DNA from: Dichotomocladium elegans
Taxonomy: Eukaryota; Mucoromycota; Mucoromycetes; Mucorales; Lichtheimiaceae
Length of the DNA stretch: 64,000 nt
Assembly (NCBI GenBank): GCA_025716815.1
Contig: JAIXMN010000002.1
Location: forward strand, 1,674,001 to 1,738,000
Reading direction: 5' to 3'
This document shows, piece by piece, positions 50,923-58,403 of the stretch; positions within the stretch are counted from its first letter, which is position 1, and every line of letters starts with the position of its first letter. The notes beneath the pieces were generated by a model. That model was not told where the DNA came from. It saw only the letters and a list, made by a program, of their open reading frames with translations, and made no database searches. The position numbers were made by a program, and so were the translations under genes.

Positions 50923-51693
50923 TATCCATGACCGCATGATCCAAGCTTGATTGAAAATAAAAGTATTTCGAGAATATGGTACAAAATTATCCGCGTGTAT
51001 TTTCGCTTTTTTTTTTCGGGGGCCTGAATTGAATAGAGCGCTCACCAATCGATCATTCTTAATTGTTCTCCATCTTCTTGCCGTGCCAAATGCCACATCT
51101 TGTCATACTTATGATGAAAGCCAGACTAAGGAATCTCATGCCCATATCAACAGAATCTCTTCGTACCATCTACATTTACGTTCGCCTGAAGCTGGATAAC
51201 TCCAAAGTAAGACAAGAGAGTGGAAGCCCCCCATTTTTTTCAAAACCCACGATCTTTGATGTCAGGATACAAAACCGCGCATAGAGGGAATACTTTATTT
51301 TCAATCAAGTTTGCGCCATGCGGGTGTGGATATCACGCGAACACAGTATAGTATTTGCGGACAAAACATACGGGCCGAATGAGAAGGGTCATAAAGATCA
51401 AGCCTATTACTATGTTGTCTCGCAGCAGACTTTATTGCTCTCTACCGACTCGAACCAGCCTTTAGGGTGCCTCGCGCAGCTTCTTAGGCCATTCCACCGC
51501 TAAGGTGACCCGCGAACAAAAGAGCCTGTACCAGATTTTAAGGTAGCGGTTTGCATGAGAACTCTAAGACACCAGAAGAGAGCATTGTATGGTTCGACTG
51601 CGTTTTGATCGGGAACCTCATCGACAGCATCCGCGGTCATCGCAAAGGTATTGCCGACCGCCCTGGGATCTGAGCGTCAACCTATTTCTCACA
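50923..51693. other. space between the Fanzor relic and the Fanzor transposon
   Basis: No intact coding. A few short frames occur (for example 51318-51503, and WFDCVLIGNLIDSIRGHRKG near 51590-51650 on the plus strand) that may be transposon debris. Confidence 0.45.
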
Positions 51694-51859
51694 GTATACA
51701 CCATTTTTCAAAATCAAAGTCGCACCCTGCCAGTTTTGAAGTCGCAGGATTGCAAAAATACAAATCGCATTTTTGCCCGGAAATCTTTACGCGTGATGAC
51801 AAAGCAAAAGTCGCATACATACACGAAAAGATGTCGCAAATCCATCTCATCCTTATGAC

Positions 51860-52440
51860 TCTTTCTCTTTATAAACTTTTACATTTTGAAATGAGCAATC
51901 TATTATTTTACAACGATGGCCAAGGTCATGTCGCTGATGAGGAAATGTACTCACTTCAATCCGTTTGTTCTTACACTGAATATCTGTGTAGCATATCGTG
52001 CAAAGATAACTCTGAGTTTACTCTCACACACATTCCCAAGCGAAAGGATACATACATTCGGATGAAAGAAGCGGGGATCAAGGGCAGTTACACAGCATAC
52101 ACTGATCAAGGCAAGGTCAGATGTTTCAAACTGGTGTTTGAGGAGGTATTGAGTGCATCAGCTGCAGCAAAACAGCTAGGACTCCATGTTCGTTCAGCAC
52201 AGCGATGGGCATTACAGTATGAAAAGGATCCTGACAGCATTTTAAGAAACGTAGAAGCAGGGGCCGATCGTGTATTCTCAATGAAGAGCATATCGAGAAG
52301 ACTAAGTTTATTCTTGGAAAGAACAAAGAACTATCGGAGTGTGCTTTCTTTGTCAATGAGCCATTTAGCCTGGGGATTGTAACTCCGAAGCTGGTTATCA
52401 AATGGAATAATGAAGTAATAGCTTTCAGGAGACTCCTGTG
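51860..52440 (+). pseudogene. relic of a mariner/Tc1-like transposase, N-terminal helix-turn-helix part
   Basis: One frame ends with GKVRCFKLVFEEVLSASAAA, then KQLGLHVRSAQRWALQYEKD. This is a helix-turn-helix as in transposases of the mariner group, where an SA-A-AAxxLxLxxRTAQRW pattern is common in mucoromycetes. After about 52280 the reading continues in another frame with EEHIEKTKFILGKNKELSEC, the linker that follows the DNA-binding domain in such proteins. No DDE catalytic domain remains, so the element could not move itself. Confidence 0.6.
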
Positions 52441-52690
52441 TTCTCATTGTAATATTCAGAGAAATTATTCATTATGTACCTACACTTTCTGAACGTATGG
52501 ATAAGGATGACAGCAGTGTCGTGTTTTGTTGTGTTGTAAGAGACTGAGAGAGTACGAAAAGAAGTACAATCTTCCTACACTACACAAGTGCCGGATATGT
52601 ATCGGATTATTCTTGAGATGGTCTCTTGGAATTACTTGTTGGAATTGTTTGGGATTTCATTGTTGATTTCAGACCGCCCTCACGTCGATA

Positions 52691-52862
52691 CAGTGGCCGC
52701 CCCTCATAGTTATACCCTCGGTTCCAGGAAATCGCATCACTATAATGAATTATCACTATAATGAATTGGAATAAGCCCTACCTGGCAACTTTGTCCTTCA
52801 TAAAGTGTATCGCTATAACGAATTATCATTATAATGAATATCACTATAACGAGCGGCCATTG
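52691..52862. mobile_element. MITE copy B (172 bp, TA target duplication), nested in the Fanzor element
   Basis: Flanked by TA (52689-52690 and 52863-52864). Inverted ends CAGTGGCCGC and GCGGCCATTG match at nine of ten positions. The interior repeats TATCACTATAATGAAT-like words four times. Homologous to copy A at 4614-4766; copy B has one extra repeat unit. Better conserved ends suggest a younger insertion than A. Confidence 0.85.
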
Positions 52863-53107
52863 TAAAACCTCATTAAAGAACCCAGTGGGAAAAAGAAAAA
52901 CACTGTGGAGATGGATCATTGCTGACACTATAAATAGTGATGCTCAAGCAAGCTGTCCCTTTCCATTATCCACATACAAAACTAGAGCCCATTCAGCCTA
53001 CAGAAAATAACACAGCACCACATTTACGGTTGAAAGGTAATACGGCCGCTTTCATACTCGGCTCTGCGATACTAAGAAATAATATACCCTAGGTCTTCAC
53101 CCACCAA

Positions 53108-55306
53108 ATGGCCCAACCCCACCGCCCCGTCATTCCCGAAGGCATGCGCACTGGCCACAGCATTGACCGCACTGGCCGTATAATTGGGGTGAAATCGTCC
53201 ATACGGGGCATCGGCTGGCGACAGCAGTACCGTGAACGTCTGTATCAGTTGGTTGACCTTGTCCACAACACCACAACACAGGCGTACGCGTTCGCCAAAT
53301 ATATTTTCATCAACGAGGCAGCGCGCGATCCAACTTTTAACATCCAGGAAAACATCACAGAGAAGTTCTTTTCAGAAGTTTGGCTCTCCATGGTTAACAA
53401 AGCCGAACGCCGCACCCAAGGTGAAACTGCCCGCATCCGAGAACTAATTAACCGCCACAAGGATGAGTACCTTCGGATATCCGGATACGACAGGCCTGCG
53501 TTCCCTTATTCCCAGCAATGTTCTTCTTACGAAGGCACCAAGATTTATACTGCTTACGTGAATAATGTCCACATGCGGTTCGGGCAACACCTTCGGCGTG
53601 TCATCAATGTCATCCTGAATCTTCGTCAGCGAAAAGCCGACCGCAAGCGAGAGTTAATCGCACAGGGCCTAAGCCCCGATCAAGTACGCCAGGACCTTTA
53701 TGAAACCATCACCCGGCATGCCACAGGATTCAAGCTAGCAATTGCCCGTCGAGGTGTTTTGAGGGAAGACATTAACGCCGAACCTGGATTTCTTCGGGAA
53801 GCATACGATATCCTACAACCTGTCTTAAACGCTTACCCCCGAAACCACCAATTCCAACACCAGAGTATCTATTACGACGCCAAGGCCAATCCTGTTAAGC
53901 ATTTCAACGCCTTCTTCCAGCTTGCACGTGTTTGTCAACAGAACGGAATACGCGGATTCAACTGTTTTCCACTTCGTCGCTCGTGGTCACCATGCTACAT
54001 GGAGATCGATACGAAAATCCTTTGCTACCATATCCTGGGCTGCAAAATGGAATCCCACACAAGCAATATGGAGTACTGGAGACGTGTTGTAAACCTGAAA
54101 TCAAGAGCTTTCAAACCCCAAGAATCCGAGCTGCTCCAATTCCGTGGGACTATTCACACTGACGGCGTCGGTGTTACTGTGTTCAAGAAGACAAATGGCC
54201 TTCAATCGGGTTTCGGACAGAGATTTGGCATCCAGAGCGAAGATATCGAATACGTCACCCCACAGATACTCCGGAACGAAGACTATAGAGGACAATGGGT
54301 CACCATTGATCCTGGCAGAAGGGACCTGTTGTATTGCGTTCATGAGAACTCGTCACCCGACAACCACCAGACCTTCCGATATACAAAGCAGCTTCAAGAT
54401 CATACACGGAAGACCAAACGGTACCGCAGACTCCGAGAACGACTCAAGTTAGAGCGACCCGAGGTCGCGTTGGCTGAGCAGAATCTATCGCAATTTCAAA
54501 GTCATACGCTTTCCGTGCCCAACTACGACGGATACCTCGCCGCCAAGAATCGGGTCTCTGTAGTTCTCAAGTCTTTCTACGCGACAACCACTACGAACCA
54601 CCCGAACCCGCAATTTCTTTTTCGAAAACTCCGCCTGTCAGCGTTTTACAAGAAGCAGCAAGCAGATGAAAAGCTTCTCGATTCTTTGAATGCGAAGTTT
54701 GGCAGTAGATCCGTTTTCGTGATGGGAAATTGGTCTGCGCCGCATACAAGATATCACGAGCCTATCCGTGGTGTCGGCTTCCGGCGGCTGTTGAAGAAGA
54801 ACAATTGCAATATTTATTTGGTCGACGAGTACAAGACAAGCAAGTGCTGCCCTGTATGTGACAATGAAAGCCTTGCTACCTTTAAAATGGTTCCTAATCC
54901 ACGCCCATATCGACGACCCGACAATCCGCTCACGATCTGCCATGGCCTGCTACGGTATGAAGGACGGGCATGTTGTGTTATACTTCCAAAAGATTATAAT
55001 ACAGTATTTTGATGTTTCAATAGATGCACAAATCAAAACTGTACAGCAGGCATGGCAGAGGGTGTTTGTCAACCAAGGTTATGGAACCGGGATCTGGCGG
55101 CGGCTCTCAACATGCATCATATCCTCCGGGGTCTTCGGGAAGATGGTATCATCCCAGCAAGGTTCCAGAGAAGAAATGCTGCACAAGCATCCGCAGCTGG
55201 TGGAAGACCGCACTCACCTGAACCAGAGCAGCGCAGCGTGAGACCACGACGGGCAAGGCCAGGAAGGCCACGAGGTGCACGCTCTGGCGGGTCGAGACGA
55301 CCGTAA
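53108..55306 (+). CDS. Fanzor (eukaryotic TnpB-like RNA-guided endonuclease), copy B, 706-707 aa if spliced
   Basis: An uninterrupted frame runs from 53108 to 55012. After the N-terminal wedge/REC-like part come KSRAFKPQESELLQFRGTIHTDG, then RuvC-I WVTIDPGRRDLLYC (Asp401), then FVMGNWSAPHTRYHEPIRG with a Glu near 551 as the likely second catalytic acid, then the zinc-finger half KTSKCCPVC and LTICHGLLR. The third motif, RLWNRDLAAALNMHHILRG (Asp at 55091), lies in a different frame. It joins in phase if 54972-55046 or 54972-55049 is removed as an intron (donor GTTGTG, acceptor ACAG or AGCAG). A better-looking donor nearby (GTATGA) would not restore it. The tail is basic (RPRRARPGRPRGARSGG). 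Fanzors cut DNA guided by an RNA encoded at the element's right end. Start context ACCAAATGG is good. Either spliced and intact, or broken by a small indel. Confidence 0.85.
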
Positions 55307-55433
55307 CCCCAACCAAGAATTTTCCGCGTCAGTTATCGCTGACGCACCCAGGATAACCACAGCCCTTCGGGGCAAGCCCCCTTCCTTTGGAAGGACGGTG
55401 TGTTGTAAGTCAACGGGATTGGAGAAGGCGTAG
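55307..55433 (+). ncRNA. candidate Fanzor guide RNA (fRNA) scaffold
   Basis: Immediately after the Fanzor stop codon lie three stable hairpins within 70 bases. GCGTCAG/CTGACGC is a 7-bp perfect stem with a 6-nt loop (55326-55345). GCCC-TTCG-GGGC is a UUCG tetraloop (55362-55373). CCTTCC-TTT-GGAAGG has a 6-bp stem (55380-55394). In TnpB and Fanzor elements the guide RNA is made from the 3' end of the nuclease gene and the right end of the element, so position and structure both fit. Transcript borders and the guide segment cannot be read from one copy. Confidence 0.6.
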
Positions 55434-55590
55434 TGTTTTCTGCTGACTAACAGGGTTTCATCCATGGATGCGATATCTTTTTACCTATTGATACGACAAA
55501 TTTATATAATTCTATGCGACATTTTTCTTGTATTTTGCACGACATTATTTTATCTTGTTTACGAAATTTATTTTTGAAAATAAAGTATAC

Positions 55591-56126
55591 AAATAATAAG
55601 CAAATGCAGGGCATATACATGCGGGGCTGGGGTGAACGGTGGTACATAAACAACCTGATTTGGCCGACTGCAGCTATTGTTACTGCTCGTGCTCCGCGAC
55701 GTCGCTCAATTGGCTATCTACAGTAAGCAAGGTACAGCCCTCAAACGCGCGAGTCAAATAACGGTTACTTTAGACAGGCGTGTCACATAAAGGAAGAAAG
55801 CATGTCTACACGATTAGTTAACGAAAACTTCGTCTATAATTTATGCAACCTCACAGCGATATCATTTAGTTGGCCCTGTTTCAACTTTAGGCTATCTTCT
55901 CCATATCTATCCTTGTTCCGAAATTGAGCCGCGGTCGTCCTTTATATATATATATATATATATTGGAGGAGGGCTTATGTGTTGTGATCAATGCAAAAAA
56001 AAAAAAGTCAGCTTCTTTCTATGGTAACCGAAGCGACCGTGAGAAAAGGCGGTAACGGGCGGAGCAGGTTGATTAAATAGCCACGCTTCCCCCGTCCTAT
56101 TTTTCTCGTTATCTCGAAAGCGCGCA
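55591..56126. other. spacer with a TA microsatellite, promoter side of the S9 peptidase
   Basis: TA repeat at 55943-55963 and an A11 run near 55995. GATTAAATAG at about 56070 could be a core element of the peptidase gene. No coding. Confidence 0.5.
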
Positions 56127-58403
56127 ATGGTCGAAATTAAACCCTACGGCGCGTGGCCATCTCCTGTGACCCCAGATTCCCTCTCAGCCGGCATCAGCGC
56201 GACTGACTTGATGGTCGATGGCGAAGATGTGTACTGGAATGAAGTCATTCCAGCCGAACAAGGTCGCGGTCAGATCTTTTTCAAGACTCCCGTGGACACC
56301 GTCCCATTGCTACCGGCAGGGTACAGCTGCGCAGACCGAGTGCACGAGTATGGCCGCGGCACATTTGCCGTCAAGAATGGTCTGGTGGTCTTTTCAAACG
56401 ATAGTGACAGCCGACTCTATACTATCCGTGAGGGGACCATTGCACCCTTGACGGCGGACAGCAACAACCTACTTCGATACGGTGACATGCGCATTGATGA
56501 CAAGTGCGAGTATGTTGTGTGTATTCAGGAACAGCACTTTGAAAACGAGCAGCCAAAGGATGTGATCAACCGACTCGTGTCTGTTCGCCTCTCGGATGGG
56601 TCTGTTCATCCTCTTGCCGAAGGCTACGACTTTTATGCATCTCCACGTCTTCATGGCGATCAACTAGCATATGTTTGCTGGAAGCATAGCAACATGCCTT
56701 GGGATTTTACAGAGCTTCATGTTGGTACCTTCACCGGCACATCCATCGAGGGAACGAAATTCATTGCAGGGAACGAAGAGAGTGTTGCGGTAAGGCGAGC
56801 GGGCGGGGAAACTACTCCATCCTTCTTTTCTTAACTCTTTCTTTCCTTTTTTTTTTTTTGTCTCCCGGTAAAAATCAGCAACCCGAGTGGGGCTTGGATG
56901 GTACACTCTATTTTGTCTCGGACCGTTCCGGATTTTGGAACATTTACAAGTGCAGCGGGGATGAGGTCAAGCCTGCGTTGGGCAGGACGTTGGACCAAGA
57001 ATTTGCTGACGCAGCCTGGCGCTTCAATAACTCCTGGTATACGCCATCGCAATCCGATCCTACCAAACTGGTTTGCATCAACAAGAGCTCGCTTGCCATT
57101 ATGGATACCGAAAAGCAGACCCTCACCAATATCGAAGCCCTTCGTGACTATGTCAGCTTTGAATATATCCGCACCATGAAGGGTCCACATGGCGATATCA
57201 TCGTCACCAACGCGACGTCGACTCACGCACCTTGTCAGATTGTTGCAGTCGATGACAGCGGCGTCCGTGTGATTCGCGAGGGCAAGGCCCCCGCACTTGA
57301 CCTGCCCTACGTGTCACTAGGTGAAGAAATCGAATTCCCGACTGAAAACGGTCTGACGGCTTATGCCTACTACTATCCGCCCAAAAACCCCAACTACGAA
57401 GGTCCCAAGGGTGAACTCCCTCCTTTGCGTGTGCTCTCTCACGGTGGCCCTACCTCCTCCGTCTCTGGCAGCTATAATCGCAGCATCCAGTTCTGGACCA
57501 CGCGAGGATTTGGCATTGTGGATGTCAACTATGGTGGTAGCACAGGCTACGGCCGGACATACAGAAACAGACTCAAGAAGATGTGGGGTATCGTTGACGT
57601 GGATGACTGCTGCAATGCGGCACGTTATCTGGTCAAGCAGGGCCGGGTCGATGGTAACAAGTTGACCATTGAAGGTGGAAGTGCGGGCGGATACACTACT
57701 CTGTATGCTGGTTTTTTTTTTCTTGTTTGTTTGCTGGCATACAATGCCCACTAAATATATTCAATTAGAGCGAGCCTTGCCTTCCGCGACGTCTTCAAGG
57801 CTGGCTGCTGTCAGTATGGCATCTCGGATATCACCTTGTTGGCCAAGGAAACTCATAAATTCGAATCTCGCTACCCAGGCAAGCATATAAAAGTCGGACC
57901 TTTTTTTTTCTGCTAAGCAAGGACTCATATAAGCCATCTTTCTCTCTAGATGAGCTGATTGGCGAATATCCCAAGGACGAGGCCATTTACAAAGAGAGGT
58001 TGCGTTTGGGAAAAAAGGGGGCACAGTACAGTATTTGGACTGAAAATGGCAAATTCACAGATCTCCTTTGTTCTCGGCCGATAAGATAAAGTGCCCAGTC
58101 ATCTTTTTCCAGGGGGCAGAGGACAAGGTGGTCCCTCCATCCCAGGCGGAGGTCATGGTCAATGCACTCAAGGAAAATGGCGTTCCGGTGGCTTATGTTT
58201 TATACCCAGAGGAGGCACATGGTAAAGGCAGTTCATTCTCATATGCATCCACTGTTATCAAACTGATGCGTAATGGCATAGGTTTCCGCCGTGCTGAGAA
58301 TATCACGCGGACGGTCGAGCTGGAACTGTGGTTCTATGGCCAAATATTCGGTTTCCCTGTGGAGGGCGTCGATGGTGTGGAAATCTACAATTTTTCCAAG
58401 TAA
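56127..58403 (+). CDS. S9 family serine peptidase (acylaminoacyl/dipeptidyl-peptidase-like), six exons, 642 aa
   Basis: Exons: 56127-56789, 56879-57702, 57769-57878, 57950-57998, 58061-58221 and 58282-58403; 643 codons, all phases consistent. Intron 3 has a GC donor (GCAAGC). An N-terminal beta-propeller with repeats such as VHEYGRGTFAVKNGLVVFSN and QPEWGLDGTLYFVSDRSGFWN is followed by the alpha/beta-hydrolase domain with LRVLSHGGPTSSV, IVDVNYGGSTGYGRTYRN and the nucleophile elbow EGGSAGGYTTL (Ser489). Asp570 in GAEDKVVPP and His602 in PEEAHGF complete the triad. No signal peptide, so probably cytosolic. The layout is that of the DPP-like S9C group; exact peptide preference is unknown. Intron 1 carries a T13 tract, and a T10 tract follows the exon 2 donor. 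Confidence 0.92.

Follow-up and report, generated by a model that had tools for sequence, protein, structure and literature searches.

A probably intact, one-intron Fanzor1 gene in a young Tc1/mariner-type transposon of the mucoralean fungus Dichotomocladium elegans

According to the available text of Bao and Jurka 2013 (PMC3627910), Fanzor1 genes are already known from Mariner-type elements with TA flanks, and a Fanzor element without a transposase is known as well. Comparable with the element described here are PGv-1, PUl-1 and PUl-4, in which Fanzor1 is accompanied by a Mariner-like transposase or by Mariner ends and TA flanks alone. PGv-1, in contrast to our element, resides in a virus; among 37 pattern stretches of viral contigs, tblastn found no relative. 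The same text places the Mucorales elements that it names, the MuDr-like ROr-4, PBl-3 and MCi-4 as well as MCi-2 and MCi-5, in other or unclassified groups.

SPu-1, the element of SpuFz1, is likewise a Fanzor1 element with terminal inverted repeats, putative TA duplications and no transposase of its own (PMC3627910, PMC10432273). As given in the accessible portions of Saito et al. 2023 (PMC10432273), a conserved CA stands ahead of its left inverted repeat, its TAM is CATA, and the Spizellomyces punctatus omegaRNA joins a scaffold of 75 nt from the right end to a guide of 14-15 nt taken from the flank. Our element shares with SPu-1 a conserved dinucleotide ahead of the left repeat and an RNA from the right end, which is here a prediction, but its dinucleotide is TA, and its gene contains one predicted intron where SPu-1 has a single ORF (PMC3627910). 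Related transposase units exist for our family, whereas, according to those portions of PMC10432273, no transposase flanked by Spu-1 repeats was found. Finally, the 17 full-length SPu-1 copies are about 92% identical to their consensus (PMC3627910, available text), whereas 15 of the 29 other copies that we fetched reach an identity of 99% or more with the window copy across the bases that align.

Two further systems bear on the comparison. TnpB of IS200/IS605 cuts the element-free site under RNA guidance, upon which the element is copied back by recombination (PMC10432273, same portions), a likeness to what we propose below; it differs in being prokaryotic and in having TnpA as its partner transposase ('peel-and-paste') instead of a DDE transposase. 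Among solved proteins the best match is PpFz1 (PDB 9cf0-9cf3), a Fanzor1 that has its catalytic residues and zinc finger in common with the window protein. About 93 of its chain residues (1002-1094), which we take to be the RuvC insertion (FRI) domain described in the consulted part of PMC11423790, are without counterpart in the window protein, and its TAM is ATN according to the same source, whereas we predict TATA.

The window is the whole stretch of 64,000 nucleotides that was analysed. Fanzor proteins are found in eukaryotes and are related to the CRISPR nucleases. We think it probable that the window contains an intact one-intron Fanzor1 gene carried by a DNA transposon of Tc1/mariner type, young and non-autonomous, in the genome of D. 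elegans (Mucorales, Lichtheimiaceae), and that this transposon is mobilised in trans, with Fanzor restoring its site. Protein family, catalytic residues, intron-like interruption, ends, copies, transposase relic and related transposases, selection and RNA-like structure are all apparent in the DNA itself (Table 1). In the openly licensed literature, as far as its text was available, we did not find the family, its youth, the intron in the finger, the related transposase units or the selection signal, and a full-text search for Dichotomocladium together with Fanzor found no paper.

Table 1. Features of the Fanzor-carrying element in window coordinates
Feature	Position	Strand	Remarks
Fanzor-carrying Tc1/mariner-type element	51695..55587	+	left end TATACACCATTTTTCAAAATC, right end TTTATTTTTGAAAATAAAGTA; edge TA counted at both ends; identity between copies confined to this interval, flanks differ
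TATA at left edge; predicted TAM 5'-TATA	51695..51698	+	conserved TA beside the TA abutting CACC; 38/40 left ends; TAM by analogy with SPu-1 (CATA)
Relic of IS630/Tc1-type transposase N-terminus (helix-turn-helix part)	52017..52289	+	weak Pfam HTH matches; part encoding the DDE domain missing
Fanzor1 exon 1	53108..54954	+	N-terminal part, RuvC-I, shifted RuvC-II E574, first zinc knuckle
Catalytic D401 codon (RuvC-I, DPGRRDL)	54308..54310	+	aligned with SpuFz1 D383
Catalytic E574 codon (RuvC-II, VDEYKTS)	54827..54829	+	aligned with SpuFz1 E541
Predicted intron, 69 nt, GTATGA...CAATAG	54955..55023	+	GT-AG; holds in-frame TGA; in-silico splicing restores C4 finger and RuvC-III
Fanzor1 exon 2	55024..55306	+	second zinc knuckle, RuvC-III D639, arginine-rich tail
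Catalytic D639 codon (RuvC-III, LWNRDLAA)	55091..55093	+	aligned with SpuFz1 D606
Conserved structured stretch just past the stop, 64 nt	55324..55387	+	low variation, fold z, hairpin kept in second family; candidate omegaRNA part
8-bp hairpin	55326-55345	+	within 55324..55387
Possible pseudoknot of the 8-bp hairpin loop with GAUAAC	55352-55357	+	read from sequence
UUCG hairpin	55362-55373	+	within 55324..55387
Right end, potential hairpin TTTATTT-TTGA-AAATAAA	55567..55587	+	expected 3' end of omegaRNA scaffold, by analogy with SPu-1
Predicted guide segment of this copy's omegaRNA, ~15 nt of flank	55588..55602	+	inferred from SPu-1

The nuclease gene and its predicted intron

An earlier note on this DNA had recognised RuvC-I (DPGRRDL), a zinc finger (CCPVC...ICHGLLR) and RuvC-III (LWNRDLAAALN) in this order and had proposed a nearly intact Fanzor gene. 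The motifs do lie at the place given, in that order and on one forward frame (53108-55306), with CPVC starting from codon 54848, and membership of the Fanzor family is borne out by homology. The spliced protein of 709 aa has Parasitella parasitica Fanzor 1 (PpFz1) as its best match in a phmmer search of the PDB (E=1.1e-129; query residues 22-506 and 504-666) and also matches SpuFz1 of Spizellomyces punctatus (E=2.8e-52; residues 38-665); with exon 1 and the start of the intron as the query, the same two proteins are found at 9.5e-120 and 1.7e-43. D401, E574 and D639 align with D383, E541 and D606 of SpuFz1, the catalytic residues according to the consulted part of Xu et al. 2024 (PMC11423790). 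The three RuvC acids are thus in place, as the note had held, including the one that it left unnamed, the shifted RuvC-II glutamate E574. The phmmer matches are well outside what chance would give. In Pfam, the TNB model PF07282 remained sub-threshold on exon 1, scoring 15.4 bits where 26.3 are required. Identity to 36 aligned database relatives is 27-51%. Because the protein is homologous to two solved Fanzor1 proteins and its three catalytic acids align, its assignment as a Fanzor1 nuclease is well supported; RNA-guided cutting is its predicted activity.

The Fanzor frame contains a single stop, the TGA at 55010-55012, which divides it into a frame of 53108-55012 and a continuation of 55013-55306. 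The ICHGLLR of the earlier note runs into the second zinc knuckle, whose continuation CTNQNC is reached only after excision of the predicted 69-nt intron. Removing 54955-55023 in silico leaves the frame undisturbed and produces HGLLRCTNQNC, the latter half of a C4 finger that precedes the last RuvC acid D639 and is complete only with the predicted intron removed. With the other GT-AG choices tried, either the finger or RuvC-III is cut short, or residues encoded by the intron persist in the finger. An interruption at the same place is found in three Fanzor copies of the same genome (L064, L065 and L066; 57, 56 and 52% identical to the window copy), and the database relatives P0003 and P0001 are gapless there, reading HGLLRCTNQNC and HGLLRCTHQTC.

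Conceivably, the TGA might truly end the protein, in which case the gene would be a pseudogene of recent origin, given that the frame does read TGA at this position and that the intron is a prediction. This is very improbable in our estimation, as three diverged relatives have an intron-like GT-AG segment at the corresponding position, the spliced finger agrees with annotated relatives and the ORF bears the mark of purifying selection (see below); we have rejected it on the intron evidence. As far as the sequence can tell, the Fanzor1 gene is intact with one predicted intron, because this intron takes out the sole in-frame TGA and because the interruption is conserved in relatives. 'Nearly intact' understated the state of the gene, which is whole once the predicted 69 nt are removed.

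Ends, copies and age of the element

The earlier note had also pointed to a well-preserved locus with its own flanks. This is correct, but the locus is one among dozens of dispersed copies. When 30 loci fetched by protein similarity are compared (the window copy being L006), DNA identity in the better-kept copies begins at 51695 and ends near 55587, giving an element of 3.9 kb whose terminal inverted repeat is short and imperfect (51705-51718 and 55567-55580; 14 nt, 86%). The genome contains right ends at no fewer than 40 places plus one fragment row, left ends at no fewer than 40 places plus five smaller rows, and at least 79 match rows of the Fanzor protein (70 of 863 candidates scored), 16 of which span the whole exon 1 query at 98-100% identity and free of stops. 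In at least 14 of the 30 fetched copies, splicing gives an ORF no shorter than 702 aa in which the D, E, D and C4 motifs are all exact, a lower bound in that four loci (L009, L021, L028, L033) missed the start or donor pattern and four had no acceptor match; two copies (L017 and L018) each have a spliced ORF of 709 aa with one motif deviating from the search pattern. Together with the near-identity of so many copies, this indicates that the element is young and multi-copy and that its spread is recent.

The flank following the element differs in each of 36 right ends (L055 and L018, the latter the same as L061, were left out with unrecognised terminal motifs, and would add one T and one A). 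TA is present at both edges, in ambiguous register, except that five copies have a match of 6-7 bp instead. When the flanks of 22 of the 30 loci with full copies were joined and searched for, no clean empty site came to light (of 52 candidates, 40 were scored; seven loci in which both ends were not recognised were dropped, as was L017 with a left flank of less than 25 nt), and we therefore call the TA duplication putative. The significant matches of these joined flanks were the loci themselves and one diverged duplicate of the L009 insertion site (L067, C35:678080-678340, on the contig that carries the window), which has 44 extra bp at the position of the element.

The left edge is more uniform than the right. 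TATA (as TATACAC or TATATA[CG]C) is found in 38 of 40 distinct left ends, whereas a TA beyond the right-edge TA is found in 24 of 36 right ends (Fisher p=0.002). The left-end tally excludes L085, which is the same locus as L043; four copies were absent from the first tally, of which L002 and L003 read TATACAC, L047 reads AATACAC and L027 is degraded. A symmetric insertion preference would not explain this asymmetry. It would follow from a TAM requirement, or from a left end to which those two bases simply belong. The transposase units L068 and L069 have CA, not TA, at this position, within a shared AAACATACACTC. By analogy with the CA and CATA of SPu-1, the pattern suggests 5'-TATA as the predicted TAM of the window Fanzor1.

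The five exceptional copies (L004, L028, L018, L019 and L078/L099) have left ends that read TATATACC or TATATAGC(C) before ATTTTTC, replacing TATACACC, and their last 6-7 left-end bases (TATACC, TATAGC or TATAGCC) recur immediately behind AAAG at the right end of the same copy. Four such matches led to the prediction of the fifth, which was borne out; the count leaves aside older copies that have TACACT or TACACG. Either a 6-7 bp target duplication, which would be odd for a TA-targeting transposon, or recombination at the junction would produce such matches.

Other observations concern the surroundings and remains of the element. At C46:1029411-1030645 lies a derivative whose left and right ends are only about 1.2 kb apart, so that most of the Fanzor gene is absent, which makes it a ghost copy or one with an internal deletion. 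Inside the element, upstream of the Fanzor gene, 52740-52855 of the window consists of AT-rich direct repeats of the type TATCACTATAATGAAT. The neighbouring host gene has a Peptidase_S9 (prolyl oligopeptidase family) exon at 56690-57754, and its likely upstream exon starts about 0.5 kb downstream of the element.

A structured stretch beyond the stop codon

How might the element supply a guide? The 64 nt at 55324-55387 form the least variable non-coding bin among 29 copies: they have 0.078 changes per site, whereas the remaining non-coding bins range from 0.16 to 0.53 (Fisher p=3.6e-4, with 376 changes in 1413 sites; a recount gave 381) and exons 1 and 2 have 0.184 and 0.145. All the bins were drawn after the structure had been seen. 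The interval 55318-55387 folds with z=-4.26, a value matched by none of 200 shuffles. For the whole 280 nt from around the stop to the right end z is -1.43, which is not significant; it is -1.59 for the homologous 80 nt of a second Fanzor family (L064), and -0.55, again not significant, for the region of the right-end hairpin (55540-55588).

The 8-bp hairpin is 99.1% paired across 14 sequences. Two of its pairs are doubly changed, both of them in the four second-family sequences, so they reflect what happened in a single lineage, as opposed to many separate events. Its covariation score was reached in 2 of 500 shuffles, the number of doubly changed pairs (two) in 412 of 500 and the number of further pair types in all 500. 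Pairing of the UUCG helix, as we have drawn it, amounts to 78.6%, its base being broken in 5 of the 14 sequences. These 14 come from 18 distinct sequences (L018, L019, L031 and L092 were dropped; the window sequence represents L004), and as the 18 were found by the hairpin pattern, strongly changed copies are missed. Allowing up to two mismatches, the pattern occurs at 128 places in the genome (78+50) and its reversed control at none. A search of Rfam with 51600-55700, at E up to 10, gave no match.

We regard 55324-55387 as a candidate part of the omegaRNA, and by inference from SPu-1 we take the geometry of a right-end scaffold followed by a flank-derived guide to apply here as well. The right end itself is well kept: its last 26 nt to 55587 are identical in the second-family copies L064 and L086 and its last 21 in L065; the stretch fetched for L087 does not include this right end. 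Structures in a 3'-UTR can have other roles, however, and it is a real possibility, if not the one that we favour, that 55324-55387 acts in mRNA stability or 3' end formation and that the omegaRNA is confined to the last 50-75 nt. Known scaffolds are short, with the PpFz1 guide starting near nt 50 (PMC11423790, consulted part) and the SpuFz1 scaffold measuring 75 nt (PMC10432273, consulted part), which is in keeping with such a division, as are the distance of about 200 nt between the stretch and the right end and the partial absence of the middle of the 3' region in some copies (121 nt in total in L065, 280 in the window). Conversely, the stretch is the least variable non-coding part of the element, its first hairpin is retained in a second Fanzor family, and omegaRNA length is reported to vary considerably between species (PMC11423790, same part), all of which argues for the candidate omegaRNA.

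L065 (C40:584250-586900), the second-family Fanzor in question, has a compact 3' region, the 121 nt of which start shortly ahead of the hairpin and reach as far as the right end; directly after this Fanzor lies sequence that resembles the N-terminal part of a transposase unit.

Mobilisation, selection and a possible role for Fanzor

What might move the element? Its upstream ORF has only sub-threshold HTH matches in Pfam, and a TAA interrupts the relic region in most listed element copies, whereas relatives elsewhere are open for 371-475 aa. One of the related units, L068, encodes a DDE_3 transposase (E=1.8e-30) and shares 75% identity with the Fanzor element along its left 660 bp; as this similarity ends at 52290, the DDE part is missing from the window element. 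Another unit, on C57 (L069 with L066), matches L068 along 2.75 kb at 98% identity; its transposase is convergent with a Fanzor gene that is open in both exons, and on C44 the Fanzor 3' end alone is kept beside the transposase. Transposase and Fanzor sequence are thus physically linked at two loci, although these could also be one duplicated segment. The right end of the C57 transposase unit was looked for and not found. We propose that a transposase of the L068/L069 type moves the family of the window in trans.

Is the nuclease itself maintained by selection? Changes in the ORF were divided into those shared by at least two copies and those private to one, shared status being a crude proxy for internal tree branches. 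In 29 of the 30 copies chosen by protein (L028 was dropped, with coverage below 80%), where the element's own non-coding spectrum gives an expected N/S of 2.69, shared missense, synonymous and nonsense changes number 32/45/0 (omega 0.26) and private ones 187/109/7 (omega 0.66). Because choice by protein favours conserved proteins, the analysis was repeated on loci chosen by right-end non-coding DNA, with the last 1431 coding bases compared in 28 of 30 loci (L043 and L057, covering under half of the coding stretch, were dropped): shared changes were 18/30/0 (omega 0.22) and private changes 127/72/4 (omega 0.67; Fisher p=0.00095). The two sets share many genomic copies. A simpler dN/dS against the window copy (27 of 30 copies, three skipped), which suffered from the choice by protein similarity and counted shared ancestry repeatedly, has been replaced by this analysis. 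The pattern fits purifying selection on the transposing lineage and relaxation after insertion.

We envision a scenario whereby the transposase of a related element moves the Fanzor element in trans, and Fanzor cuts the matching element-free site beside a TATA motif, be it on the homologue, on the sister or at the site just vacated. Repair from the element-bearing copy would then restore the element at the cut site, and excision could proceed without loss of the element's place. Tentatively, and with less confidence than we have in the overall picture, we propose that selection maintains Fanzor as a propagation factor, in a transposon whose own transposase has been lost: the DDE transposase would come from a related element, whereas the cutting of vacated or empty TATA sites, by which copies are kept and multiplied, would be self-supplied.

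Alternatively, Fanzor may be a passenger ORF in an element that is moved by a transposase in trans, the nuclease adding nothing to its spread. The element did spread although its own transposase is a relic, and at least one derivative, the one on C46, has ends about 1.2 kb apart; moreover, shared and private changes are alike within the 19 youngest copies (8/9/0 against 39/33/0, p=0.79), where the omegas, 0.32 and 0.42, are both below 1. Against a passenger stand the shared omega of about 0.22-0.26, as opposed to a private omega of about 0.66-0.67, in two differently chosen, if overlapping, sets of copies, and the fact that all observed nonsense changes are private (7/7 and 4/4); we consider it unlikely.

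Somewhat less unlikely, but still doubtful, is that Fanzor serves all related elements in trans, through a pool of guides, selection then acting on a few source genes and not on every copy. The same idea has been put forward for Spu-1 ghost loci (PMC10432273, available portions). Here, the 128 hairpin places exceed the 79 Fanzor match rows, so gene-less copies with the RNA are likely to exist, although this difference is a weak one because the Fanzor list is a lower bound. Against this reading, at least 14 of the 30 fetched copies have a full ORF, which is more than a few sources.

This one genome makes the propagation hypothesis, in which each element supplies its own cutting, open to test: copies that are almost identical lie dispersed in it, the nuclease bears a signal of selection while the transposase beside it is dead, a candidate for the partner transposase is present, and guide RNA and TAM are concretely predicted. 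The window protein is a diverged Fanzor1 that does without the roughly 93 residues present in the RuvC region of PpFz1, and the window element is useful for learning what Fanzor does for its element. If true, acting as a propagation factor would be a biological role of Fanzor, which is recorded as unknown in the available text of Saito et al. 2023 (PMC10432273).
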